NCBI GenBank assembly: GCA_002786715.1
Contig: PCTW01000010.1
Coordinates: 119,754 to 162,501, forward strand
Length of the DNA stretch: 42,748 nt
DNA from: Bdellovibrio sp. CG22_combo_CG10-13_8_21_14_all_39_27
Lineage (GTDB): Bacteria; Bdellovibrionota; Bacteriovoracia; Bacteriovoracales; Bacteriovoracaceae
Reading direction: 5' to 3'
A program made the translations under genes and the position numbers. This document shows positions 30,527 through 42,398 of this stretch, one piece after another (the stretch's first letter is position 1; every line of letters begins with the position of its first letter). The notes under the pieces are model-generated. The model was not told where the DNA came from, ran no database searches, and saw nothing but the letters and a program-made list of their open reading frames with translations.

Positions 30527-33500
30527 ATGGTGAATATTATTAGAAAAAGCCCATTCTTTGCCTTTCTCCTTTTGTTGATTCTATCAACGACAACAAATAC
30601 ATATGCAGCTTGTGGTGCCATTGATCGAACATGGGATGGTTCATCAAGTTCTAAGTGGGCCACAAATAATAATTGGTCAGGAAATAACTTTCCCAATAGT
30701 TCCGCTGAAAATGCCATTATCGTAGCGGCTACTCGTCGACCGAAGGCAAAAGCCAATATTGTTGTCGGTTGTGTCGAGGTTCAATCAGGAGATATGCGGT
30801 CTTCCAATAATCGTACTTTTACAGTGCAAGGGGACTATTTTCGAGCGACAGGTGTTGCAAGTTTATTTGTTTCAACAAATCACAACTGGACAATTCATCT
30901 AGCAGGATCATCTCATCAGGATTTGGACATTGTTGATCCAGTCAATAATCTTACTATTTCAAATAGCACTTCAGTTTCTTTTAATTATCCCTTTGAGGTT
31001 CGAAATACTTTTACCATGAGTGGGACAGGTACTTATCTGAACGTCAATGAAGACTTAACTTTGTCAGATTCTGCCCAAACGGTGACCATTCCAAGTGCGG
31101 CAACTATCGAAGTGGCCACGGGGAAGACTTTAAATATTTTCGGTTCACTTGTTGTTAATGGAACTCTTATTCTAAATCCAGGCTCTACTCTAATGCTTGG
31201 AAATGCAAAATCGTTAACGGTGGGAGCAAGCGGTCAACTCAGATTACAAGGCTCAAGCGGTAACGTCGCCACTGTAAAAAGTCAGTCGGGCTCCATAGAT
31301 GCTGTTCTTAATGGATCTTTGTGGGCTCAGTACTTTAGATTTTCGAGCTTCAATCTAACTACTGCTGGTATCAAAATTAACGGTTCGGTAGCAATGCTCG
31401 AGTTTGGTGAATTCCATTTTATTCCAAGTGGAGGCTATGCTTTAACACTTGGATCTACCGTTAATATGCCTACTACAGCAAATGGAATTGGCTTCTATGA
31501 TGACAATGCCTACGGCAATACAAAATCTATCAATGCTTCAAGTTATAATTCTACTGCTATGATGCTTAATGATTGGTCTGGTAATGGAGGCACTCCTTCT
31601 GAAACAGATCCCAATTCAAAAATCGATTGGGGAGTTCAAGCAGGAACAACTCTGACTCTCTCAAATAATTCTAATATTGGCTTTCCTTCTGATCCTGTCA
31701 CAGCAGGATCGGCAGCTCAAGAGTTTGCCATTTTTGCTTTTGCTTTATCTCAAAATTCAGCACCAACGGATATTACTCAAGTGACTTTTACTCTTAATGG
31801 AACTGCAACAGCGTCAGATATTGATTATGTTCAAGTTTTCAATCAAGGGGCCAGTTGCCAAGTAAGAGGCGCACAAATTGGTGGAAATATTAACATGTCA
31901 GGTTTTCCAGCTACGGCGACAATCAACATACCTTCTGCAACTGTCACAACTAGTGGAACAACTCCCGCATGTATTCATGTTCTTGTGAGAACTACTGCAA
32001 CAGCTGAAAACAATGCAACCATTGGTATTAAAATCGATGGAACATCTGATGTCGTCAATTCTCAAGGCTACGACTTCTCTGGAGTTTCTGGTCCTCCTGT
32101 TTCTGGCCCTGTTGTTACCATTTCAGGAGACCCAACCCGTTTGTGGAGAGGGTCAAACTCTACCAATTGGAGAACAAATGGTAACTGGCAAGGGGGATGG
32201 CCTGGTTTTAATGAGAACTGTAAAATTCAAGCAGGTGTTCGAACTGTTAGACTTACTGCCAATGAAGCCTGTCAAAATACGACACTTGTTTCAACTGGAG
32301 AAATAAATTGGAACAATTCGAGTTTTAGTTTAACCGTTTGGGGTTATCTTAATGTTGAAGCTGGATTCACTTATACTAATGCCGCAAACTCATCACTGAT
32401 TATGGGGGGGGCAACGAACCAGTCAATGGTTATCTCTGAGCCCTTTCCTGGCAACGTCACGATCAATAATACAGGTGGTATTACGAGTATTATTTCCGTC
32501 GATGGTGATTCAACTATTAATGGAAATTTAACTGTAACTAATGGTCTTTTGAGAATTGCCAGCGGAGTCACTTTACAAGTGAATGGAAGTGTTACAGTTC
32601 AAACTGGCGCAAAACTTGATATCGAGCCAGGTGGTACATTGAAAATGGCCAACGGTAGAGTTGTCACAATTAATACAGGCGGAACCCTCGAAATGGTTGG
32701 AGGTGCCACAGATGCTATCATGAGTTCAACTGGTGGAACAGCAGCTTTTACCGTTGTTGTTAACGGAACCATTAAGGCCAGTCATTATCTTTTCGATCAT
32801 CTTGGTGTTAACGGTGTTACTATTAATGCAGGTGCCGCCATTGATGCCACTGATAATTTGTCATTCGGTACTTTTAAACATCCGGTTAATAATTCTTCGA
32901 CTCTTCTCACTTTGAATCTTCAAGTTCCAGGTAATACTTTATCGACAATGGCCTTTGACCTCAATGGCTCTGCAGCTTCAGCGGCAACGATTAAAAATAT
33001 CAAAACCAATACCACTGTTGGAACACTGACAATTAATAGTTATTCTGGAAATTTATCAGGTCCAACTTATGAAAATGCACCAGTTTATTTAATTAATTGG
33101 ACTGGTCTTACAAACACTTTAGATATTGCACAACAAGCGACTTCTTCAACTCAAGTTTATCAAGGTCAAACGTATAATATGGGGCGCTTCAGTTTGAAAC
33201 AAAGTCAAGCTGGAGCAAGCTACGTCAACACAAACATTAATTCTATCGCTTTAACATTAACTGGAACGGGATCATCAAATGATATTTCTGTTGCGAGATT
33301 ATATTATGATGATAATTGTGATTCTTCAGGTGGCGTTTTAAAAGGCACTGGTACTTTTGCGGGTAATCCAGCTAAAGTAACTTTTTCGGGTATGACAGGA
33401 ACAACAATTGAAGCATCAACAGGTGTTCCACCAACAAGATGTTTTTATGTTGAATATGACATTTCAGGTTCCGCCGTAAATGATAAAACTGTCGGTTTTT

Positions 33501-36500
33501 CTGTGGCCTCTTCAAGTGATATTGTTGATTCTCAAAGTTACGTCATTTCTGGTTCAACTCCGCTACCAATTACTTCAGGAGCGCCGTCGACAATTATTGG
33601 TTCTTCGACTGTTTGGACAGGAGCTGTAAATACCAATTGGGCGACAGCTGGAAATTGGAATGGTGGTGTACCAACAGCATCATTGAACTGTGTTATCAAT
33701 TCTACTGCTAATCAACCGACTATTTCAGCAGGTACAGGTATTTGTAATTCAGTTTTCCAAGGGGCCGGTTCTACTATCACTATTAATACTGGAACAACTC
33801 TACAATTATTTGGTTCTCTGAATAATGATGGAACTATAGTTGCAAATGGAACAATTGATTTTACCGACAACGGAATCAATTCTACAAATCAAGTAATAAA
33901 GAATGGACTAACTCTTGGAAATTTAAAGTTATCAAAAACGGCGAATGGTTTTGTTGCATTCAATGGTACTGTTACGGCCAACGCTTTAAACTTAAGCACT
34001 GCAAATTCTTTATTAATTTTAAGTTCTGGAAGAGTTTTAATCCTTCCAAATGGCGCAGTTTTAAACTCAGGAAAATTAAGGATTGATGCTGCAGGTGTTG
34101 TGAAAATAGGAAATGGTCAATCCTTCACAGTCGCAGGTGGCGATTTACAGTTTAATGGTACGGCAGAAGCTTATCCACAATCGCTTTCGAACAAGGCTAA
34201 AATGACCGTTGATGGTGCCGGAACCTGGGGCCTCACTGGAACCAGCGGGAATATTACTTTATCAGGGTTTAATCTCGATTATTTAAACAACAATGGACTC
34301 AACTTAACAGGTTCAGTAAATCTGCTGGCCTTTACGGGCGGACAATTTACGAACTTACCAACTGCGTATGCTTCTATGAGTGTTATGAATATCAATTCAA
34401 CGGGAACTATTCCAGCACTCGCTACCAATGTCGGCATCAACTGGGGACCAATTAATGCTTATCCAGTTCCAGCTGATACTTACAAACTTGCCAGCTCTAC
34501 CGGATGTGCTAGTCATTCTATGGACTTTGACGATTATTTCGGTGACTGGCTCGATAATGCAACTGTCGGTTTTGATGTCAATTCGAAAGTTTCTCAGACA
34601 GGTTGTAATGTTACTTTCTCTGGCGCTGTGACGGCCGTCTCGGTAAAAAATCTTAGAGCAGATGCTTATAATGGGGCAGTCGATTTGCGTTGGGATACGA
34701 CCAATGAAACGGATCATTTAGGATTCCATGTTTTTAGAAGTGATGAAAATGGGGATCACTTTATTCAACTTTCTCCTCGTATGATTCGCAACTTTAATAC
34801 GTCCGGAAGTTTAGGTGGTTCTTATCGCTTTGTTGATTTCTCTGCCGTAAATGACACTACTTATTTTTACTATATTCAAGATTTTGATAATCTTGGCATC
34901 TCTAAAATGTGGGGACCTGTTGCCGCAAGACCACAAAACGGTTTAGGAACGCCTCCCGCCGATGGAGGCAGTGATAATAGCGGGTCACGCCCAGATCCCA
35001 TCAATCCGACACCGAATCCTTCTCCGTACCCTAATGGATATGAAGATCTCGGCGATGGATTTACTATTCTGGCCCGTTCTCAAGATACAATACGTTTGAA
35101 AATTGTTCCAGGAGCATTGACTACAACTAATGCTACGTGGAATGCCTCTTACAAAGAGATTGCGATAGATGGTTACAGTAAAAAAGAAGAAGCTGGAATG
35201 CCGGCCCTGCTTGAACGAACTTTATTAATTGAAGTTTCAGATTATTATTCACAAGTTCAACAACAAGTTTTGAGTTCTTCTCAGTCGACATTATCAGATC
35301 TTTTAGTTTCACCGGCGCCGCAATGGTCATTAGATGGGAGTGGAGTTCTTATTCCAAGTTATAGCCCCAATGCTACCGCCTATGCCAGTTCTCTTGTAAA
35401 TCCTTCGACTTTTACTCATTTGCATTCGGAATTGATCTCACAAGGGGCAAAGAAATTTATAAAAATTGTCATTTCACCAACGTTGTATTCTGCTTCGACC
35501 AAAACGATAACCCGTTTGGACGAGATGGTTGTTGATCTTTTTCTAGGGACTTCTCCTTGGTATGAAGATACCAAGAATTCATCTCTGTATGCACGTGACA
35601 ATACTGTTCATATAGGTATTGATAAAACGGGAATGTTTGAACTGAACTATAGTGATTTGACTTCGGCTTTTGTCGATGGCCCTGTCGCTGGAAAACCCAT
35701 TTCAAGTTTGCGAGTTTTTCAAAATGAAGTTGAAATTCCAATTGAAGTCATAAGTGCTGATAGTATTTTCAATGCTGGTGACAAAATTCGCTTTATGGGA
35801 CTCTTTACTCCTTCACAGGAAAACAATGAATCCTTTGTCGTTCTGAGCGCCTACGACTTACTTGGCACTTCACAAACTCCTATGAGATTAAGTTCATTTA
35901 ATGTCGATGGTAATCCTAGTTTAGGTTCAACTTCTACAAAGCAAGCCTTTGCGACTATTTCTGCTGAAGAAAATAATATTTACGTAACTGACAGTCCTGT
36001 TGGTGCTGAACATGATCACTTCTTCTGGAAAATGATTTTTGCGCCTTATCCGGCCAACGTCAATTATGAAAAGCTACCTTTCTCGATGACCATTTCTGGG
36101 CTTGATGTGGATTCCAATTCCGATGCCATTTTGTCAGTTTATCTCAAGGGAACAACAGATGAGAAGGGAAATATCAATGACCTCGTCCATAGCTTAGGTC
36201 TTTATGCTAATGCTGCCATAGATATGGTGACCCATGTCGAATTTGTAGGAGGCAGATATCAAAAGATTAATTTCTCTATTCCACTTGAGTACTTAGTTGA
36301 TGGTGCCAATAATTTCATTTTGAGAGCTCTTGCAAGCCAAACTCCGTATAGTGATCGTATGCAAATTGATCGCGTAGAACTAACTTATCCCTATATTCGC
36401 TATAAATTAAATGATCAAACAATTTTGCGAAATGAATACGCCAATACCAAAATGAGTTTTTCAGGATTAAGTACTAGCACGGTACGCATCTTTGATATCA

Positions 36501-37984
36501 GCAATTCAGAAGCTCCATCAGAGCTGAATAATGTGTTGATCTCTGGCCCTGATGCCAACAGCGAGTATACTGCCTCTTTCTATTCAAACTCAGGTGTAAA
36601 TGCAGAGAATGGAAACAATTTTTTAATTATCGATAATCAACTTTATTATTCAGTGACATCTTTAAAAGTGAATAGAGGTTCCATTAAGGGCCTAAGAGAT
36701 ACAGACTGGAATAAATCCATGATTGTGATCGGTGGCGAGGGCGCGCTGGAAGCGGTTGAAGAATTAACTTATAGACGTGAAGCTCAAGGATTAAATGTAC
36801 TTAAAGTGACTTATCAGGAAATTTACAACGAATTCAGTTTTGGTCGTGCTTCTTCATTTGCGATCAAAGAATTTTTACTAAATGCCTATGATACTTGGTC
36901 AACTCGGCCAAGTTATGTTTTGATCCTTGGCGATTCAACTTATGATCCCAAAGATCATTTTGGCTTCGGCATTAGACCTGACGTTTCACCGATGCCAGTT
37001 GTGAGTGGCCAGATCTATGACTTTGGTTCCGATAACTGGTTTGTTACTAGGTTGGATGCTGTCACTCCTTTGATGGCCATTGGACGCTTTCCATCGTCAG
37101 ATCCTTCCGTCCTTCAAACCATGGTTCGCAAATCTCTCGATTTTGAAGATGAACTTGCCAGTCCTGATTTTGATACAAACCGTAAGATTACTTTTTTAGT
37201 TGATAATTCGGATAATAACGAGCGCTTTAGACAACGTAGTGATGAGATTTCTCAAATGTCAGCGTTATCACAGGCCAACATCGTTCCGCAGACTTTCGAT
37301 CGAGGAGAGTTGGGTGATGCTCAGATGACATCTGATATAGAAAGCAGTTTTTCTAATCAATCACTCATTGTTAATTATTTGGGGCATGGAGCTGAAGATC
37401 TATGGACAGATAATGATCTCTTTACCACAGCTGAAGCTGAGGTATTAAGCAATACGGAATACCCAATCCTCATGGCCTTGAACTGTTTAAATAATTATTT
37501 TTATGACCCTGATGAAACTTGGTTCTCACTTGGTGAAACACTTCTAAGTAATAAGTCTGGCGGGGCCGTTGCTTTTATTGGCTCTACTGCTATGACGACG
37601 CCAAATGCCCAAGCTCAATTTGCTAAAAACTTTTATCAGCTTTTAGGAGATCGTATTAAAAACGGTTCGAAAAGTACGCGTCTTGGAGATCTTTTCATGT
37701 TGGCGAAGCAACAACTCCCTAGCGAAGGTTATTACTCTGATGTTCAAAATAGTTACTTACTGGTAGGTGACCCATCGATGAAGTTTCCTGAAAAGCTGTT
37801 CTTCAATATTCCAGCTTCGGTTGTTTCCTCTCCAGCAGCGGCTCCTACAAAAAGTGGAGGAGGATGCTCGGCCATGGGAGCGGATGGTGGCCCAACAACA
37901 GGTTCCGGATTATTAGAGATTGTGTCTCTGATTTTGAGCTATATGATTGGAGTTTGGTTGATGAGAAAAACTGGGTTAAGATAG
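30527..37984 (+). CDS. Giant secreted gingipain-like (peptidase C25) protein with C-terminal sorting tail
   Basis: The 2485-aa product has a signal peptide (residues 1-27, NTYA cleavage site). Three modules follow, each opened by a W-x-G-x5-W-x5-NW motif (Trp36, Trp540, Trp1030) and continued by repetitive beta-rich sequence. A fibronectin-III-like domain (about 1373-1475) and a Pro/Asn-rich linker (about 1475-1505) come next. A C25 peptidase domain covers about 2062-2425 (YVLILGDSTYDP). The catalytic pair is likely His2287 (LGHGAEDLW) and Cys2320 (ALNCLNNY), 33 residues apart as in gingipain R. The C-terminus has Gly-Gly-Gly-Cys (Cys2447), a hydrophobic helix (about 2463-2480) and basic RKTGLR, like MYXO-CTERM-type tails. 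Surface display and proteolysis are inferred. The RiPP-like precursor begins 8 nt downstream. Confidence 0.88.
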   Translation: MVNIIRKSPFFAFLLLLILSTTTNTYAACGAIDRTWDGSSSSKWATNNNWSGNNFPNSSAENAIIVAATRRPKAKANIVVGCVEVQSGDMRSSNNRTFTVQGDYFRATGVASLFVSTNHNWTIHLAGSSHQDLDIVDPVNNLTISNSTSVSFNYPFEVRNTFTMSGTGTYLNVNEDLTLSDSAQTVTIPSAATIEVATGKTLNIFGSLVVNGTLILNPGSTLMLGNAKSLTVGASGQLRLQGSSGNVATVKSQSGSIDAVLNGSLWAQYFRFSSFNLTTAGIKINGSVAMLEFGEFHFIPSGGYALTLGSTVNMPTTANGIGFYDDNAYGNTKSINASSYNSTAMMLNDWSGNGGTPSETDPNSKIDWGVQAGTTLTLSNNSNIGFPSDPVTAGSAAQEFAIFAFALSQNSAPTDITQVTFTLNGTATASDIDYVQVFNQGASCQVRGAQIGGNINMSGFPATATINIPSATVTTSGTTPACIHVLVRTTATAENNATIGIKIDGTSDVVNSQGYDFSGVSGPPVSGPVVTISGDPTRLWRGSNSTNWRTNGNWQGGWPGFNENCKIQAGVRTVRLTANEACQNTTLVSTGEINWNNSSFSLTVWGYLNVEAGFTYTNAANSSLIMGGATNQSMVISEPFPGNVTINNTGGITSIISVDGDSTINGNLTVTNGLLRIASGVTLQVNGSVTVQTGAKLDIEPGGTLKMANGRVVTINTGGTLEMVGGATDAIMSSTGGTAAFTVVVNGTIKASHYLFDHLGVNGVTINAGAAIDATDNLSFGTFKHPVNNSSTLLTLNLQVPGNTLSTMAFDLNGSAASAATIKNIKTNTTVGTLTINSYSGNLSGPTYENAPVYLINWTGLTNTLDIAQQATSSTQVYQGQTYNMGRFSLKQSQAGASYVNTNINSIALTLTGTGSSNDISVARLYYDDNCDSSGGVLKGTGTFAGNPAKVTFSGMTGTTIEASTGVPPTRCFYVEYDISGSAVNDKTVGFSVASSSDIVDSQSYVISGSTPLPITSGAPSTIIGSSTVWTGAVNTNWATAGNWNGGVPTASLNCVINSTANQPTISAGTGICNSVFQGAGSTITINTGTTLQLFGSLNNDGTIVANGTIDFTDNGINSTNQVIKNGLTLGNLKLSKTANGFVAFNGTVTANALNLSTANSLLILSSGRVLILPNGAVLNSGKLRIDAAGVVKIGNGQSFTVAGGDLQFNGTAEAYPQSLSNKAKMTVDGAGTWGLTGTSGNITLSGFNLDYLNNNGLNLTGSVNLLAFTGGQFTNLPTAYASMSVMNINSTGTIPALATNVGINWGPINAYPVPADTYKLASSTGCASHSMDFDDYFGDWLDNATVGFDVNSKVSQTGCNVTFSGAVTAVSVKNLRADAYNGAVDLRWDTTNETDHLGFHVFRSDENGDHFIQLSPRMIRNFNTSGSLGGSYRFVDFSAVNDTTYFYYIQDFDNLGISKMWGPVAARPQNGLGTPPADGGSDNSGSRPDPINPTPNPSPYPNGYEDLGDGFTILARSQDTIRLKIVPGALTTTNATWNASYKEIAIDGYSKKEEAGMPALLERTLLIEVSDYYSQVQQQVLSSSQSTLSDLLVSPAPQWSLDGSGVLIPSYSPNATAYASSLVNPSTFTHLHSELISQGAKKFIKIVISPTLYSASTKTITRLDEMVVDLFLGTSPWYEDTKNSSLYARDNTVHIGIDKTGMFELNYSDLTSAFVDGPVAGKPISSLRVFQNEVEIPIEVISADSIFNAGDKIRFMGLFTPSQENNESFVVLSAYDLLGTSQTPMRLSSFNVDGNPSLGSTSTKQAFATISAEENNIYVTDSPVGAEHDHFFWKMIFAPYPANVNYEKLPFSMTISGLDVDSNSDAILSVYLKGTTDEKGNINDLVHSLGLYANAAIDMVTHVEFVGGRYQKINFSIPLEYLVDGANNFILRALASQTPYSDRMQIDRVELTYPYIRYKLNDQTILRNEYANTKMSFSGLSTSTVRIFDISNSEAPSELNNVLISGPDANSEYTASFYSNSGVNAENGNNFLIIDNQLYYSVTSLKVNRGSIKGLRDTDWNKSMIVIGGEGALEAVEELTYRREAQGLNVLKVTYQEIYNEFSFGRASSFAIKEFLLNAYDTWSTRPSYVLILGDSTYDPKDHFGFGIRPDVSPMPVVSGQIYDFGSDNWFVTRLDAVTPLMAIGRFPSSDPSVLQTMVRKSLDFEDELASPDFDTNRKITFLVDNSDNNERFRQRSDEISQMSALSQANIVPQTFDRGELGDAQMTSDIESSFSNQSLIVNYLGHGAEDLWTDNDLFTTAEAEVLSNTEYPILMALNCLNNYFYDPDETWFSLGETLLSNKSGGAVAFIGSTAMTTPNAQAQFAKNFYQLLGDRIKNGSKSTRLGDLFMLAKQQLPSEGYYSDVQNSYLLVGDPSMKFPEKLFFNIPASVVSSPAAAPTKSGGGCSAMGADGGPTTGSGLLEIVSLILSYMIGVWLMRKTGLR

Positions 37985-37992
37985 GATAATTT

Positions 37993-38157
37993 ATGAAGAA
38001 TGAAAAAAAGACAACGAAGAAAAGTTACCAAAAACCTAAAATCGAAACCGAGCCCCTAATGAGTTTTGGTGCCGTATGCAACGGAACCGTAAATGGTGGG
38101 CGAAAGGCGAGTACTGGTGCACCAGATTTTTGCAATTCCAAACGTCTCAATTCCTAA
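37993..38157 (+). CDS. Candidate RiPP precursor peptide (54 aa)
   Basis: This short ORF starts at ATG 37993 with AGGA six bases upstream, 8 nt after the C25 stop. The leader is Lys-rich and contains SYQKPKIETE (residues 11-20). Its Y-x-x-P-x-I matches the YxxP-type leader motif that PqqD-like recognition domains bind in lasso-peptide systems. The rest (residues 21-54) is small and polar: SFGAVCNGTVNGG, KASTGAPDFCNSK, with Cys29 and Cys47, and a C-terminal Ser54. HPr-kinase-like, PqqD-like and radical SAM genes follow. The last 65 nt overlap the kinase frame. Identification as a precursor rests on context and motif; the product structure is unknown. Confidence 0.65.
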   Translation: MKNEKKTTKKSYQKPKIETEPLMSFGAVCNGTVNGGRKASTGAPDFCNSKRLNS

Positions 38158-39070
38158 AGATGTCCAATGGGGTGACGTCACTCATCAAGAACTTGCCCAA
38201 AAAAAATTGGACCTGCTCCAAAAAGTAAATAGTTTGGCCCTGAGTCAAACTGTAAAGTTAAAATCATGTGGGCAACAGTTTAAAATCAATTCTCATTTTG
38301 CCATTCCTAAATCTCTAGAAGCTCTTTTATCGGATGAGCCGCGAGTCCACCTTGAATTTAATTGGTATGATTGCGAATCTCTGGGGATGGGCAGCAGTGA
38401 GTTTGAAGATGAGTCGGGCCAGGATTGCGTTTTATTCTCGCTAGGAGAATGGGAGTTTTCCATTCAAAGGGATTTTGTATCGGCCAAAAATCACCATCAA
38501 GTTGTTCTTATTTCCTATTCAAAGATTGCGGATGGGTTCCAGAATGCCCTTCGCTGTTATATACCTCGGCTGCTTTTGAGAATGAATTTTTTAGTTGTTC
38601 ACTGCTCAGCTGTTGCCCTTAATGATCAACAGGCCATCGCCTTTATGGGGCCGTCAGGAGTGGGTAAAAGTACCATTCTTTCGAGAGCACCAAACCTCGT
38701 TGCCTTACATGACGATATGAATATTCTTCGCATTGGAATGGATCATAAAGTTTATATAAAAGGTGCTGAATTAGGTTCCATCTTAGTTCCAGATCTTCCA
38801 AAAATATCGAAGGAATATCAATTGATCGAAATTTATCAGTTGAGACAATCTCAAAAAAATGAAATTTTTGAACTAAAACCGGCCGATCGTTTCACATTAC
38901 TGTTAAGCAATTTTGCCAATTATTTTTGGGAAACATTGACCTCTGGTGAAGTCGATCAGCTGACTAAAGCTGCTCAAGATATTACTAATTCTGTTCCTAT
39001 TTCAGAGTTTAGAAATAATGCCGATGTCGAGGTATGGGAAATGTTAAAGGTTCGCCATGGCCTTAGTTAA
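38093..39070 (+). CDS. HPr-kinase-like protein (HprK-related, RiPP-associated)
   Basis: The frame opens with ATG 38093 (325 aa). GTG 38117 and TTG 38207 are later options, and the first two overlap the precursor ORF. The C-terminal half carries the HprK fold: LVVHCSAVAL, GPSGVGKST as Walker A (residues 186-194) and LHDDMNIL, with the paired acidic residues 207-208 of HprK-type kinases. Bifunctional HprK lacks the long N-terminal region seen here. HprK homologues in lasso-peptide clusters phosphorylate a C-terminal serine of the precursor, and the adjacent peptide ends in Ser. No HPr or PTS gene lies nearby, so a peptide substrate is more likely than HPr. Confidence 0.8.
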   Translation: MVGERRVLVHQIFAIPNVSIPKDVQWGDVTHQELAQKKLDLLQKVNSLALSQTVKLKSCGQQFKINSHFAIPKSLEALLSDEPRVHLEFNWYDCESLGMGSSEFEDESGQDCVLFSLGEWEFSIQRDFVSAKNHHQVVLISYSKIADGFQNALRCYIPRLLLRMNFLVVHCSAVALNDQQAIAFMGPSGVGKSTILSRAPNLVALHDDMNILRIGMDHKVYIKGAELGSILVPDLPKISKEYQLIEIYQLRQSQKNEIFELKPADRFTLLLSNFANYFWETLTSGEVDQLTKAAQDITNSVPISEFRNNADVEVWEMLKVRHGLS

Positions 39071-39449
39071 TTTCACTCATCATGGCCTGAGTATGTGCCC
39101 CGTTTTAATACCCGAAGATATTATCTTGGTTGAGACTGATCATGGAGCTATTCAGCTAGGTGATATTGTTCTCTTTAAAGATAATGAATGCGGAGATTAT
39201 GTTGCTCATAGAGTTGTTGCCCTCGAACCTTTGACGACAAAAGGTGACAATTCTCCCTTTGATGAATTGATAAAGAGCGATTATGTTCTAGGGATAGTCG
39301 TTGGACGAATTCGCGCTGGTCGGCCCTTAAATTGGGGTTTCAAAGGGACTCGATTTAAATCATCAAAAGCAAGGCTGTCTCGGTTATATCACAAAAAGTA
39401 TACTCGAGTTTTTCGAGGCCTTTTTAAACTACTTTCTCGTCTTATTTAG
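39057..39449 (+). CDS. Small S26-type (SipW/ER-like Ser-His) signal peptidase family protein
   Basis: The 130-aa product has the signal peptidase box GLSMCPVL with nucleophile Ser12. It then has GDIVLFKD, VAHRVVAL with His51 in the place of the usual Lys, and TTKGDN (61-65). Ser-His with KGDN is the pattern of SipW and ER-type enzymes. There is no N-terminal membrane anchor; instead the C-terminus is long, basic and amphipathic (about residues 95-130). It overlaps the kinase gene by 14 nt. It is a good candidate for leader-peptide removal from the RiPP precursor, by inference. Confidence 0.75.
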   Translation: MALVNFTHHGLSMCPVLIPEDIILVETDHGAIQLGDIVLFKDNECGDYVAHRVVALEPLTTKGDNSPFDELIKSDYVLGIVVGRIRAGRPLNWGFKGTRFKSSKARLSRLYHKKYTRVFRGLFKLLSRLI

Positions 39450-40337
39450 CAACCATTTCACATCGTATTTTAACGAATTTGCTATTTTTCCTTTTGCTTT
39501 ATGTTTCATTTTCCAATATCTCAAGCCACTTTGCTTGGTTTGCCAGGCAAAATTAAAATCAATGTCGAGATTTGATTTAATCATCCCTTTTGGAATTTCT
39601 AAATTAAAGTTTGCAAGTTCATTGGCCAAGGAAAGTGACCAATCAAGACTCACTTTCAGATCCCATTCTCGGGCCAAATGCTGCAATTTATTCCAATCGA
39701 TTTGTTTGCTAAATTTTTCAATAAAAAGAGCTATATCCAGTAGCCAATAGATTTTCAGACAATTGTGTTGAAAGACGTAATGGCCCATTAGAAAAAGCAA
39801 GTGAGCTTCAAGTTGAAGCTGATCAGAAATTTGAGTGTGTCTGTATCTCTGCCAATCAATCTGAGGTAGGTGATAGAAAAGTTGAGAGTGACATTCGATG
39901 ACAACTTCATGATTATTTTGTGAGAGAGAAAAAATTTTCTTGTGTGAATTGCCCCACCATTTTTTCTCTTTTATTTCATGTCCATTGAGGGCCTTTATTC
40001 TATTTTCAAGGTAGTGCAGGGATTCTTGATCAATCAAGAGATCAATATCACTTTTAAAGCGTTCACCAATTTGATAAAGACCAAGTTTTTCGAGCGCGTG
40101 TCCTTTTATAAAAATGGGTTTCGTTAAGTTCATCGGCCAGTTTTCAAATAGTTTTTCAGCGCATTCATTTTGATCTTGATTCAGTGAGATTTGCTTTAAC
40201 CATTGCTCTTTAAAAGCGGATGTATCAAAAGGAAGTTGATCTGAATGGGTATACAGCCAAGCTTGAAGAAAATGCTCTTCAAAAAGATTATTCCGATGAG
40301 GAGAGTCGGCCACTCCACTGGGGATATTGATTTTCAT
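39429..40337 (-). CDS. Nucleotidyltransferase family protein (NTP_transf_5/PF14907-like)
   Basis: The 302-aa product has the family core PIFIKGHALEKLGLYQIGERFKSDIDLLID (described as residues 74-103), in which KG, G-x-R and D-x-D form the nucleotidyltransferase active site. Downstream it has VVIECHSQLFYHLP and helices rich in Trp and Leu. Members of this family often sit in peptide-modification and polysaccharide clusters with PqqD and HprK-like genes. It is convergent with the peptidase gene (21-nt overlap) and divergent from the PqqD gene with only 22 nt between starts. It may nucleotidylate the peptide; that is inference. Confidence 0.8.
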   Translation of the reverse strand: MKINIPSGVADSPHRNNLFEEHFLQAWLYTHSDQLPFDTSAFKEQWLKQISLNQDQNECAEKLFENWPMNLTKPIFIKGHALEKLGLYQIGERFKSDIDLLIDQESLHYLENRIKALNGHEIKEKKWWGNSHKKIFSLSQNNHEVVIECHSQLFYHLPQIDWQRYRHTQISDQLQLEAHLLFLMGHYVFQHNCLKIYWLLDIALFIEKFSKQIDWNKLQHLAREWDLKVSLDWSLSLANELANFNLEIPKGMIKSNLDIDFNFAWQTKQSGLRYWKMKHKAKGKIANSLKYDVKWLLNKTRK

Positions 40338-40344
40338 AACTTGA

Positions 40345-40353
40345 TGTTATCAT
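40345..40353 (+). promoter_or_regulatory. Extended -10 promoter candidate for the PqqD/radical SAM pair
   Basis: TG-T-TATCAT (40345-40353) is an extended -10 element. A start about 7 nt downstream would fall on the A of the ATG at 40360, giving a leaderless mRNA, which fits the lack of a ribosome site. A TTGATT at 40327-40332 has only 15-nt spacing. Confidence 0.35.
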
Positions 40354-40359
40354 ATCCTC

Positions 40360-40626
40360 ATGAGTTACAAAAAACGGTCTGATCTTGCCTTGAAAATGAT
40401 TGGTGAACAATTAGTCATTATTGATTCGAAAATCGGTAAGGCCGTTCATCGCTTAAATGATGTGGGTGTTTTTATTTGGGATCTCATTGAATCTTCTTCT
40501 TCCGATGAAATTTTGGCCAAACTGATGGATGAATTTGAAGTTGATGAAGCAGAGGCTCGAGCAGATCTCAAACAATTTGTAGCCGATCTTGAAGCCCTTC
40601 AGCTCATCGAGAAAAGTCATGAGTAA
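40360..40626 (+). CDS. PqqD-like peptide recognition protein
   Basis: The 88-aa product has the winged-helix PqqD pattern: a beta-hairpin (MIGEQLVIIDSKIGKAVHRLN), DVGVFIWDLIES, then helices (SDEILAKLMDEFEVDEAEA) and a final helix (DLKQFVADLEALQLIEK). In lasso and radical SAM peptide systems this RRE domain binds the leader of the precursor and delivers it to the enzyme. The neighbouring 54-aa peptide has a suitable Y-x-x-P motif. It overlaps the radical SAM gene by 8 nt. Full length for a free-standing RRE protein. Confidence 0.9.
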   Translation: MSYKKRSDLALKMIGEQLVIIDSKIGKAVHRLNDVGVFIWDLIESSSSDEILAKLMDEFEVDEAEARADLKQFVADLEALQLIEKSHE

Positions 40627-41659
40627 GCATGATCCTGCTCCACGATTGGGACTTCTGGCCCAATCGCAAGAGCACGCCTATCAAAATTGCCAACCGTTGA
40701 ATGCCACAATAGAAATTACTATGGGTTGTAATTTGGCCTGTCAGCATTGTTATAATTTTGATCGATCCAAAGCGATGCCTCCAGAATTCAAGAACAATGC
40801 ATTATCGGATACAGAGATTCACGGCATTTTGAAAGACATTATTAAAGAAGGGGCATTTTTTATTAATTTGAGTGGTGGCGAAGCTTTGCTCCATCCTTCA
40901 CTTGATCAGTTTATCCAAACTATCGTTCAGGAAAAAGCAATTGCTCGTCTCAAAAGCAACGGAATTTTGTTAACCTCAAAGCGCTGCTCTGAATTGGTCC
41001 AAGCGGGTCTACAGGGAGTGGATATAACTCTTTATGGTATGAGTGAGGAGAGCTATCAAATCTTCAGTCGCAAAAGTGCTTTTTCTCAGGCCATTCAAGG
41101 AGTCAAGAATGCGCAAGAGGTAGGTCTTGAAGTTCATATTAATTTTATTCTTCACAAGGCCAATGTCCATGAACTCGATTTATTTCTTACTGCCGTAAAT
41201 GCAAATCAATGGTCTTTCGCGATTAGCGATGAAATCACCGAGCGCTACGATCATTCACCGGGGGCCCTAGATTGGAAAATTACTGCTAATCAAATGAGAG
41301 ATCTTTTGGCCGGACCTCATCGTGCTTTGTTTGATTACAGAAATACTGATCATGCACTTCAATGTTCTTGTGCTCGTTCAGTGGTAGGAATTTCGGTCAC
41401 GGGAAAAGTCTTTCCCTGCATTGGGGCACCAATTATTGCCGGCGATTTGCGACGTGACTCATTTTCTAATATTTGGAAAAATTCTGCTGAATTTACAAAA
41501 ATTAGGAATCTCAAAACTAGTGATTTTAAGTCCTGTGAAAGTTGTGACGTGATTGATTATTGCCAAAGAAGTTCAGGTGCTATTTTTTGTGATACAGGCG
41601 ATTATACGGGATGCTCTGAAACCACAATCTCTGCTGCTAAAATTCGTTCTGAAAATTAA
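40619..41659 (+). CDS. Radical SAM/SPASM peptide-modifying enzyme
   Basis: From ATG 40619 the product is 346 aa. An earlier in-frame start at 40589 would overlap the PqqD gene by 38 nt without benefit. The radical SAM cluster motif is C-x3-C-x2-C (Cys37, Cys41, Cys44; GCNLACQHCYNF). FINLSGGEALLHP and LKSNGILLT follow as expected for SAM binding. The C-terminal SPASM region has CSCARSVVGISVTG and FPCIG, then KSCESCDVIDYCQRSSG and later Cys residues, enough for one or two auxiliary clusters. Such enzymes make thioether or C-C crosslinks, or epimerise residues. Partner PqqD is fused by overlap; the likely substrate is the 54-aa peptide. Confidence 0.9.
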   Translation: MSKHDPAPRLGLLAQSQEHAYQNCQPLNATIEITMGCNLACQHCYNFDRSKAMPPEFKNNALSDTEIHGILKDIIKEGAFFINLSGGEALLHPSLDQFIQTIVQEKAIARLKSNGILLTSKRCSELVQAGLQGVDITLYGMSEESYQIFSRKSAFSQAIQGVKNAQEVGLEVHINFILHKANVHELDLFLTAVNANQWSFAISDEITERYDHSPGALDWKITANQMRDLLAGPHRALFDYRNTDHALQCSCARSVVGISVTGKVFPCIGAPIIAGDLRRDSFSNIWKNSAEFTKIRNLKTSDFKSCESCDVIDYCQRSSGAIFCDTGDYTGCSETTISAAKIRSEN

Positions 41660-42003
41660 TTCTTTTTCTTATTGAGAACCGTATGTAGCGCCTTGAGAAT
41701 TTTTCTCCAATGAGCAAAAGTCTCAAGATCTTCAAAGTAGAGTTTAAATCCAGCCAGATGCTCGTTCTCTCTCTCTTCACTCCAGCATTGAGTGACGGAT
41801 AATAAGACTTCTTCTTTTCCAAAGAGTTTGATTTTAATTCGGCGGTTTTCACCTTCTAGTTGAATCATTTTTGGACTTCTTATTTGAATTCCTCCAAGAC
41901 CGATATCTTTTAAAATCCATCCTTCTTGAACGAGGTAATCAATTTCTATAGGAGATTTAAGTTTACGAACATCATAGCGAGGGAATAATCGAATATGATT
42001 CAT
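41656..42003 (-). CDS. PilZ-domain protein
   Basis: The 115-aa product opens RLFPRYDVRK, with the R-x3-R part of the c-di-GMP site. It has WILKDIGLGGIQIRSP, matching D-x-S-x-x-G with Gly for Ser. The rest follows the PilZ barrel (IKIKLFGKEEVLLSVTQCW, AGFKLYFEDLE). Binding of cyclic di-GMP is likely but the Ser change may weaken it. It is translated from ATGA overlap with the upstream unknown gene and its stop overlaps the radical SAM stop. C-di-GMP control of polysaccharide or motility is a usual PilZ role. Confidence 0.75.
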   Translation of the reverse strand: MNHIRLFPRYDVRKLKSPIEIDYLVQEGWILKDIGLGGIQIRSPKMIQLEGENRRIKIKLFGKEEVLLSVTQCWSEERENEHLAGFKLYFEDLETFAHWRKILKALHTVLNKKKN

Positions 42004-42398
42004 GGGTTTTTCTCACTTGCCATGAGGAACCAGCGATTCCATTTTTCTCTCGCACCGTCGACGAGAGTTTTTAACTTTTCTCTCTCGATCGTGACCTCAT
42101 CTTCGAGGTCGATGATCACCACTCTCTTTTGATTTTCTAACCAATCAACAATGAGACACAGCTCGCTTTTGGGATCGAATTGATCCAGAAGCTCTTTTTT
42201 AAGGACACCTCGTCGCTGACAAAGAAGACGCATTAATGCTGGCAGGTCATACAGCAAAAAATTTTCATTTTTACTTCCATTAATTGTAGAAAAAAGACTT
42301 TTGAACTCGCCTGGGGATGCTTTGCTTTCCAATAAAAGGAGTTTAACCGGGTTTAATGCCGGTCCAAAATACTCTTGAATTTCTTCTTTAATTCCCAT
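42000..42398 (-). CDS. Unknown soluble protein, operon partner of the PilZ gene
   Basis: The 132-aa product has no signal peptide and no membrane helix. It is helix-rich with many Leu, Glu and Lys; a basic segment (LMRLLCQRRGVLKKELLD) and an acidic strand (VVIIDLEDEVTIE) are the visible features. No family is recognised. It is expressed with the PilZ protein (ATGA overlap), so a shared c-di-GMP-linked role is possible. The start at 42398 has only a weak purine run upstream. Confidence 0.65.
   Translation of the reverse strand: MGIKEEIQEYFGPALNPVKLLLLESKASPGEFKSLFSTINGSKNENFLLYDLPALMRLLCQRRGVLKKELLDQFDPKSELCLIVDWLENQKRVVIIDLEDEVTIEREKLKTLVDGAREKWNRWFLMASEKNP

Follow-up and report, generated by a model that had tools for sequence, protein, structure and literature searches.

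What does a compact group of peptide-modifying genes make in a relative of predatory bacteria from the Bdellovibrionota (Bacteriovoracia), and what might its product be for? The question is raised by a 3.7-kb cassette of Bdellovibrio sp. CG22_combo_CG10-13_8_21_14_all_39_27 (contig PCTW01000010.1), located in the 42,748-nucleotide stretch analyzed here (the window), a contig-end part of a 4.08 Mb assembly. The cassette encodes a 54-aa peptide, an HprK-fold kinase, an S26 peptidase, a PF14907 nucleotidyltransferase (NTase), a PqqD-type recognition element and a radical S-adenosylmethionine (SAM)/SPASM enzyme. It very probably represents a pathway for a ribosomally synthesized and post-translationally modified peptide (RiPP). 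More specifically, we assign a probability of roughly 0.7 to a phospho-RiPP pathway resembling those of the linear polyphosphorylated peptides (LPPs) and paeninodin, with an added radical SAM step and a product that works with a giant C25 protease.

An earlier note on this DNA had listed the six gene types and read them as one RiPP-type pathway distinct from a lasso cluster. All six are confirmed by open reading frame (ORF), Pfam and structure matches, with the NTase on the minus strand, and the pathway reading is borne out by the recurrence of peptide and enzymes together across the phylum. The note had overlooked the LPP analogue, the near-invariant C-terminal Ser and the association with the giant C25 protease encoded upstream.

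The precursor peptide and its gene set

Of 369 Bdellovibrionota genomes, 34 have a homologue of the peptide gene (37993..38157, plus strand); they are spread over families f1, f8, f11, f16, f18 and f19. The underlying profile search matched 37 genomes, and three weak matches with internal stops were set aside. The peptide is the best-conserved part of the locus: it shares 58-70% identity with five relatives, compared with values of about 28% (kinase), 30-40% (peptidase), 28-34% (NTase) and 41-44% (radical SAM enzyme; 23% in one relative). Across nine relatives, frame-0 identity is 54-70% and identity in the other frames 13-35%, while synonymous differences per site (pS 0.74-0.99) are near saturation and nonsynonymous ones (pN 0.20-0.32) are held low by purifying selection. 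The synonymous/nonsynonymous pattern and the phylum-wide conservation rule out a chance ORF.

The leader contains KKSYQKPKIETEPLMSFGA, which provides the YxxP motif of RiPP recognition elements (RREs), and the predicted core, VCNGTVNGGRKASTGAPDFCNSKRLNS, ends in a near-invariant Ser. The 34 aligned precursors yield the consensus leader K-K-x-Y-x-x-P-x-[IV]-x-[ST]-E-x-L-x-x-[FY]-[GA]-A, followed by the core x-C-N-G-x3-G-G-R-K-x5-P-x-x-C-x4-L-x-S. Y12, P15, C29, G35, K38 and C47 are invariant in all of them; Arg37 is kept in 91%, so that GGRK is near-invariant. The last residue is Ser in 94% and Ser or Thr in 97%, and this is the sole hydroxyl column of the core conserved above 90%.

The enzyme families were expected in the earlier note to travel with the peptide, and loci with the enzymes only to speak against its reading. 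Among the 34 genomes with the peptide, 33 carry the specific kinase (>100 bits), and 33 of the 34 genomes with that kinase have the peptide (p 8e-45, phylogeny ignored; the Fisher tables for this and the other associations used N=370, the genome set being 369). The look for enzyme-only loci thus failed to refute the note. In G071, the sole kinase genome lacking the peptide, a 4-kb contig opens with the kinase gene, so that the peptide would be cut off; in G252, the sole peptide genome lacking the kinase, the peptide gene closes a 3-kb contig. The neighborhoods of the peptide loci contain the same gene set in shuffled order. Hence, the cassette is more than a chance arrangement: its peptide evolves as a protein and its gene set recurs across the phylum.

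Related PqqD/radical SAM/HprK/S26/NTase clusters with other peptides occur in many phyla. The peptide itself was not found in the looser clusters of other phyla that were inspected, a result obtained with no systematic search outside the phylum. A possible distant relative of the peptide family is a 53-aa peptide (L049:1230-1391) with a WxxP leader, two Cys and a C-terminal Ser in a metagenome-assembled genome labelled Proteobacteria, where it adjoins HprK-like, PqqD and HCYNFDR-type radical SAM genes.

Predicted maturation steps

From the observed gene content, catalytic residues, peptide conservation and co-occurrence, we infer an order of steps, their sites and chemistry, leader cleavage, export and a link to the C25 protease. 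The PqqD-type RRE (40360..40626, plus strand; E 7e-16) would bind the 54-aa precursor at its YxxP leader and offer it to the other enzymes. The nearest solved relatives of this RRE are of lasso type, namely TbiB1 (5v1u), followed by 9x8z and 9x90, described as PqqD family or lasso PqqD chaperone. Four cassettes of relatives (L011, L127, L129, L134) contain two PqqD genes each, which suggests separate RREs for separate steps.

The radical SAM/SPASM enzyme (40619..41659, plus strand; E 2e-18 and 2e-10), whose start is better placed at ATG 40619, has the full CxxxCxHC motif and a SPASM domain, and its nearest solved relatives are SkfB, PqqE and a SuiB-type enzyme. It would modify the conserved core, plausibly by a crosslink and most likely at Cys29 and/or Cys47. 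Given two Cys that never vary, a thioether is plausible, and we propose it tentatively; a carbon-carbon link or another change is also possible. A search for related loci with the window's radical SAM sequence alone found none, and one with an alignment recovered Halobacteriovorax loci and many looser clusters. A plasmid search with the enzyme gave distant matches only, all below 60% identity.

The HprK/PEPCK-fold kinase (ORF 38093..39070, plus strand) has an intact P-loop, GPSGVGKST, and its AlphaFold model (mean confidence score pLDDT 86) matches PEPCK and HPr kinase structures. His145, the P-loop Lys167 and Asp182-Asp183 (A5 numbering) are conserved and plausibly correspond to the His-Lys-Asp-Asp set reported to be essential in the lasso kinases PadeK and PsmK, which phosphorylate a C-terminal Ser (PMC9266682). 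Because the last residue is the only Ser/Thr column of the core above 90% and PadeK and PsmK set the precedent, the C-terminal Ser is the predicted phosphosite, and we think it probable that the kinase phosphorylates this residue. In LPPs the phospho-Ser lies at core position 3, whereas here predicted position 3 is Asn in 88% of the precursors.

The PF14907 enzyme (39429..40337, minus strand; E 7e-21), in which Lys78-Gly79, Asp97, Asp99, Glu148 and His150 are invariant in 26/26 sequences, would then cap the phosphate with a sugar or nucleotide. The pseudomycoidin nucleotidyltransferase PsmN adds hexoses onto phospho-Ser (PMC9266682), and LppN of the LPP pathway was inactive in a heterologous host (PMC13381572). 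Nucleotidylation of the peptide is possible, the experimental precedent for this NTase type being hexose addition.

Leader removal can be assigned by comparison with the LPP pathway, in which this task falls to the SpI-type LppS, an enzyme dependent on the RRE; the LPP leader has Tyr at -16, Phe at -3 and Thr at -1, and is cut following -1 (PMC13381572). The window's S26 peptidase (39057..39449, plus strand) is SEC11-like by sequence and UmuD/SEC11/SPase I-like by fold (Foldseek; weak E-values, 4e-3 upward). Ser12 and His51 are invariant in 25/25 relatives, with the same Ser-His spacing of 39 as in LppS. A third catalytic residue of the LppS type was considered and rejected: the sole invariant Asp of the S26 protein, Asp64, lies 13 residues past His51, while LppS Asp93 lies 25 past His68. 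Given this mismatch, we claim only the Ser-His pair. Natural fusions join the peptidase to the kinase (L012) and to the radical SAM enzyme (L013), and the model of the window's peptidase has no N-terminal membrane helix or anchor. In 30 of the 34 precursors the spacing Y-x12-[F/Y/V]-x-A, with [F/Y/V] at -3 and Ala at -1, precedes x-Cys; this LPP-like arrangement predicts cleavage behind Ala27, which would leave a core of 27 aa. An LppS-like leader peptidase is therefore the likelier role of the S26 protein, which would remove the leader in the cytosol. The conserved product of ~27 residues would be exported to the envelope and work there with the giant, probably surface-anchored C25 protease.

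The giant C25 protease and the surroundings of the cassette

Directly upstream of the peptide lies the gene of the giant C25 protease (30527..37984, plus strand; C25 domain E 1e-61). The protein of 2,485 aa consists of a signal peptide, long N-terminal repeats, a gingipain/PorU-type domain with a Cys-His dyad that is present in 27/27 homologous domains, and a C-terminal tail composed of SGGGCS, a membrane helix and the basic end MRKTGLR. It shares the C25 domain and the dyad with gingipains and PorU, and the PorU model scores 180 bits over the domain. However, this is below the cut-off of 420, and the giant protein differs by the 2,000-aa repeat region ahead of the domain and by the GGGC-membrane-basic tail.

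Counting as giant every C25 protein whose open frame spans 1,499 aa or more (range 1,500-3,500 aa; the next largest has 1,164), we find giant C25 proteases in 30 of the 369 genomes among the matches listed. Both peptide and giant C25 are present in 27 genomes, the peptide alone in seven and the protease alone in three (p 3e-31 by genome, 1e-20 by genus, again ignoring phylogeny), and the peptide is absent from all of the at least 72 genomes whose C25s are without exception small. The three genomes with the protease alone are G071, with its truncated cassette, and G242 and G268, which carry a lasso cluster instead: precursor, cyclase, B2, PqqD and HprK-like kinase, beside the same NTase and ATP-binding cassette (ABC) transporter pair. 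The C25 gene adjoins the cassette in 16 loci. It stands between peptide and kinase in G016 and, where the cassette is split in G062, beside the S26/NTase/ABC half; it lies elsewhere in the peptide-bearing genomes G007, G215, G352 and others. As the peptide kit almost always comes with a giant C25, the two probably work together in some way, and for a functional link we consider the odds about even. More tentatively, the peptide may be a dedicated partner of the giant C25, i.e., an anchor, inhibitor or cofactor and not a weapon or signal, with lasso peptides taking over this role in some lineages.

One peptide-bearing genome, G007 (L202, contig C9), has a single peptide gene and three genes for giant C25 proteins, of which two form a tandem. 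The C25 tail was also examined as a JDVT-CTERM/myxosortase target, which was rejected (best tail 9.7 bits, cut-off 27). MrtJ was likewise rejected as a universal part of the system: it is above its cut-off only in G017, and the other matches are generic CPBP proteases. The G017 protein is an MrtJ-type intramembrane protease encoded near the cassette (L013:12788-13228, minus strand; 95 bits, cut-off 75), and it may process GGGC-type tails such as that of the giant C25.

Downstream of the radical SAM gene follow two accessory candidates on the minus strand. A homologue of the PilZ-like protein (41656..42003) adjoins the cassette in six loci (window, L010, L011, L012, L127, L136), and homologues of a 132-aa protein with no assigned family (42000..42398) adjoin it in L011 and L127 and occur within larger proteins in L010 and L136. 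Envelope-polysaccharide proximity, to which the earlier note had pointed, is found in 9 of 34 loci and does not hold as a general rule, by a test that looked for similarity to the polysaccharide proteins of the window and was limited by short flanks. The same genome has a second PqqD-like gene on contig C82 (L016:9563-15124) with two nearby Cys-rich proteins, SPASM-like by eye, and this group adjoins a 758-aa protein with a pilin-like N-terminus.

Known systems, rival explanations and meaning

Several observations weigh against the proposed pathway. The kinase frame of the window has no ATG, GTG or TTG between the peptide stop and TTG 38207; the candidate starts 38093, 38096 and 38117 fall within the peptide gene, while the kinases of relatives start just past the peptide stop. 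An unusual start within 38093-38207 or an assembly indel is possible. Two distantly related groups of radical SAM enzyme (38-49% and 19-25% identical to that of the window) serve a single peptide family, so that the modification may not be the same throughout or may not be required. Four of the 34 precursors do not show the cleavage spacing. The ABC pair common in relatives has no match in the window's genome by a single query without positive control; the same query gave none in G007 and G068, and the pair was rejected as an essential part. Finally, the fairly complete genomes G095 and G230 have the cassette with divergent peptides and no C25 among the matches listed, and five further peptide genomes, all fragmented assemblies, have no giant C25.

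The cassette can be placed against several described systems. With the LPPs of the Bacillota (Popov et al., 2026; PMC13381572) it shares the YxxP leader, a discrete RRE, an HprK-like kinase, an SpI/SEC11-type Ser-His leader peptidase, an NTP (nucleoside triphosphate) transferase and, in 30 of 34 precursors, the spacing from leader Tyr to predicted cleavage site. LPP clusters, often found within polysaccharide loci, have no described radical SAM enzyme, and LPPs were described as confined to Bacillota and variable in their cores (PMC13381572), whereas the Bdellovibrionota cassette has a radical SAM/SPASM enzyme, a highly conserved core and a giant C25 partner. Moreover, the HQxIxFET part of the LPP leader YxxPxVLxHQxIxFET is absent from the 34 precursors, and the MsbA-like exporter of LPP clusters is absent from the window's cassette, its counterpart in relatives being a separate ATPase and permease pair. 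Paeninodin and pseudomycoidin (PadeK, PsmK, PsmN; PMC9266682) have in common with it the HprK-type kinase with a C-terminal Ser acceptor, the nucleotidyltransferase and a PqqD-type B1 protein, but they employ a lasso cyclase and B2 where the cassette has the radical SAM enzyme and the S26 peptidase. SynChlorMet (Scm) and similar clusters of other phyla group the same enzyme types around a short YxxP-like peptide; unlike the cassette, they often have two radical SAM enzymes and Cys/Gly-rich repeat peptides, and the ScmD, ScmE and ScmF models score far below their cut-offs (22.6/100, 89/400 and 68/400 bits). The HPr-rel-A system (TIGR04352/TIGR04353) likewise pairs an HprK-related kinase with a PqqD-related protein. 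Here, TIGR04353 reaches 27.1 bits (cut-off 35), and TIGR04352 is not among the 25 families listed for the kinase. SynChlorMet-like loci of bacteria and archaea (L052, L073, L077, L095, L101, L114) encode short peptides with a YxxP-like start and Cys/Gly/Ala repeats next to PqqD, radical SAM (often paired), HprK-like, S26 or PF14907 genes. In two genomes (L195:5535-6623; L196:5814-6917, minus strand), a lasso-type precursor with a YxxP leader and the core start T-x-S-x-G-x-K-x-D-G-G-A-F-P is apparently fused in frame to a class I SAM methyltransferase and adjoins cyclase, B2, PqqD and HprK-like kinase genes.

RiPPs with radical SAM enzymes and ABC exporters are mostly exported natural products. 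The peptide could accordingly be an ordinary secreted signaling or antimicrobial RiPP, with the giant C25 a mere genomic neighbor or co-inherited lineage marker, and G095 and G230 as well as the disregard of phylogeny in the Fisher tests are in line with this. We regard it as rather unlikely, given a core conserved across at least six families where LPP cores vary, a C25 that accompanies the peptide even when unlinked, the absence of the peptide from the small-C25-only genomes and the retention of the giant C25 in the genomes with a lasso replacement. Gingipains cut after Arg or Lys. Within a C25 link, the protease might thus act on the peptide by cutting the exported form at GGRK, or be held by it as a tight-binding pseudosubstrate inhibitor. 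The ubiquitous dyad, the conservation of Gly35, Arg37 and Lys38 and the co-occurrence would fit, but the lasso cores of G242 and G268 have no GGRK, and G095 and G230 keep the peptide with no C25 among the matches listed; this sub-case seems improbable to us.

A peptide-derived redox cofactor of the PQQ or mycofactocin type, in which the core would be consumed to give a small molecule, is suggested by PqqD, the radical SAM/SPASM enzyme and the strong core conservation, and PQQ/mycofactocin-type radical SAM families are among the matches, far below their cut-offs. It is nevertheless very unlikely: conservation takes in all of the ~27-aa core up to its final residue and is not confined to one or two positions, no dedicated dehydrogenase family is seen next to the cassette, and a kinase with a PF14907 NTase is typical of phospho-RiPPs (PMC13381572; PMC9266682). 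Even less credible is that a genuine LPP or paeninodin lasso cluster was simply mis-described, although the gene types for kinase, NTase, RRE and SpI/S26 peptidase agree, as does the YxxP leader (PMC13381572). As the earlier note had stated, a Pfam scan finds neither a lasso cyclase (Asn synthase) nor a B2 protein among the larger ORFs of the window; a radical SAM enzyme is present, and the core is conserved and belongs to a different phylum. The cassette resembles the LPP and paeninodin pathways and is a member of neither: it lacks the Ser at core position 3 and the MsbA-like exporter of the former and the cyclase and B2 of the latter.

We therefore retain the phospho-RiPP pathway with a radical SAM step and a C25-associated product. 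No published account of the cassette was found in the open-access literature, subscription papers being outside this coverage. As related enzyme sets occur in many phyla, the enzyme combination is not unique; new are the conserved core and the C25 partner. The cassette joins the radical SAM world to that of phosphorylated lasso and LPP RiPPs and places LPP-like enzyme sets outside the Bacillota as well. No biological role is known for LPPs or paeninodins (PMC13381572), and the cores of LPPs are too variable for guessing a target. Here, the core hardly changes across a phylum and is linked to a single giant protease, which makes the role of such a peptide testable. The lasso replacement in G242 and G268 further suggests that a peptide with a phosphate may be what counts, more than the fold in which it is presented.

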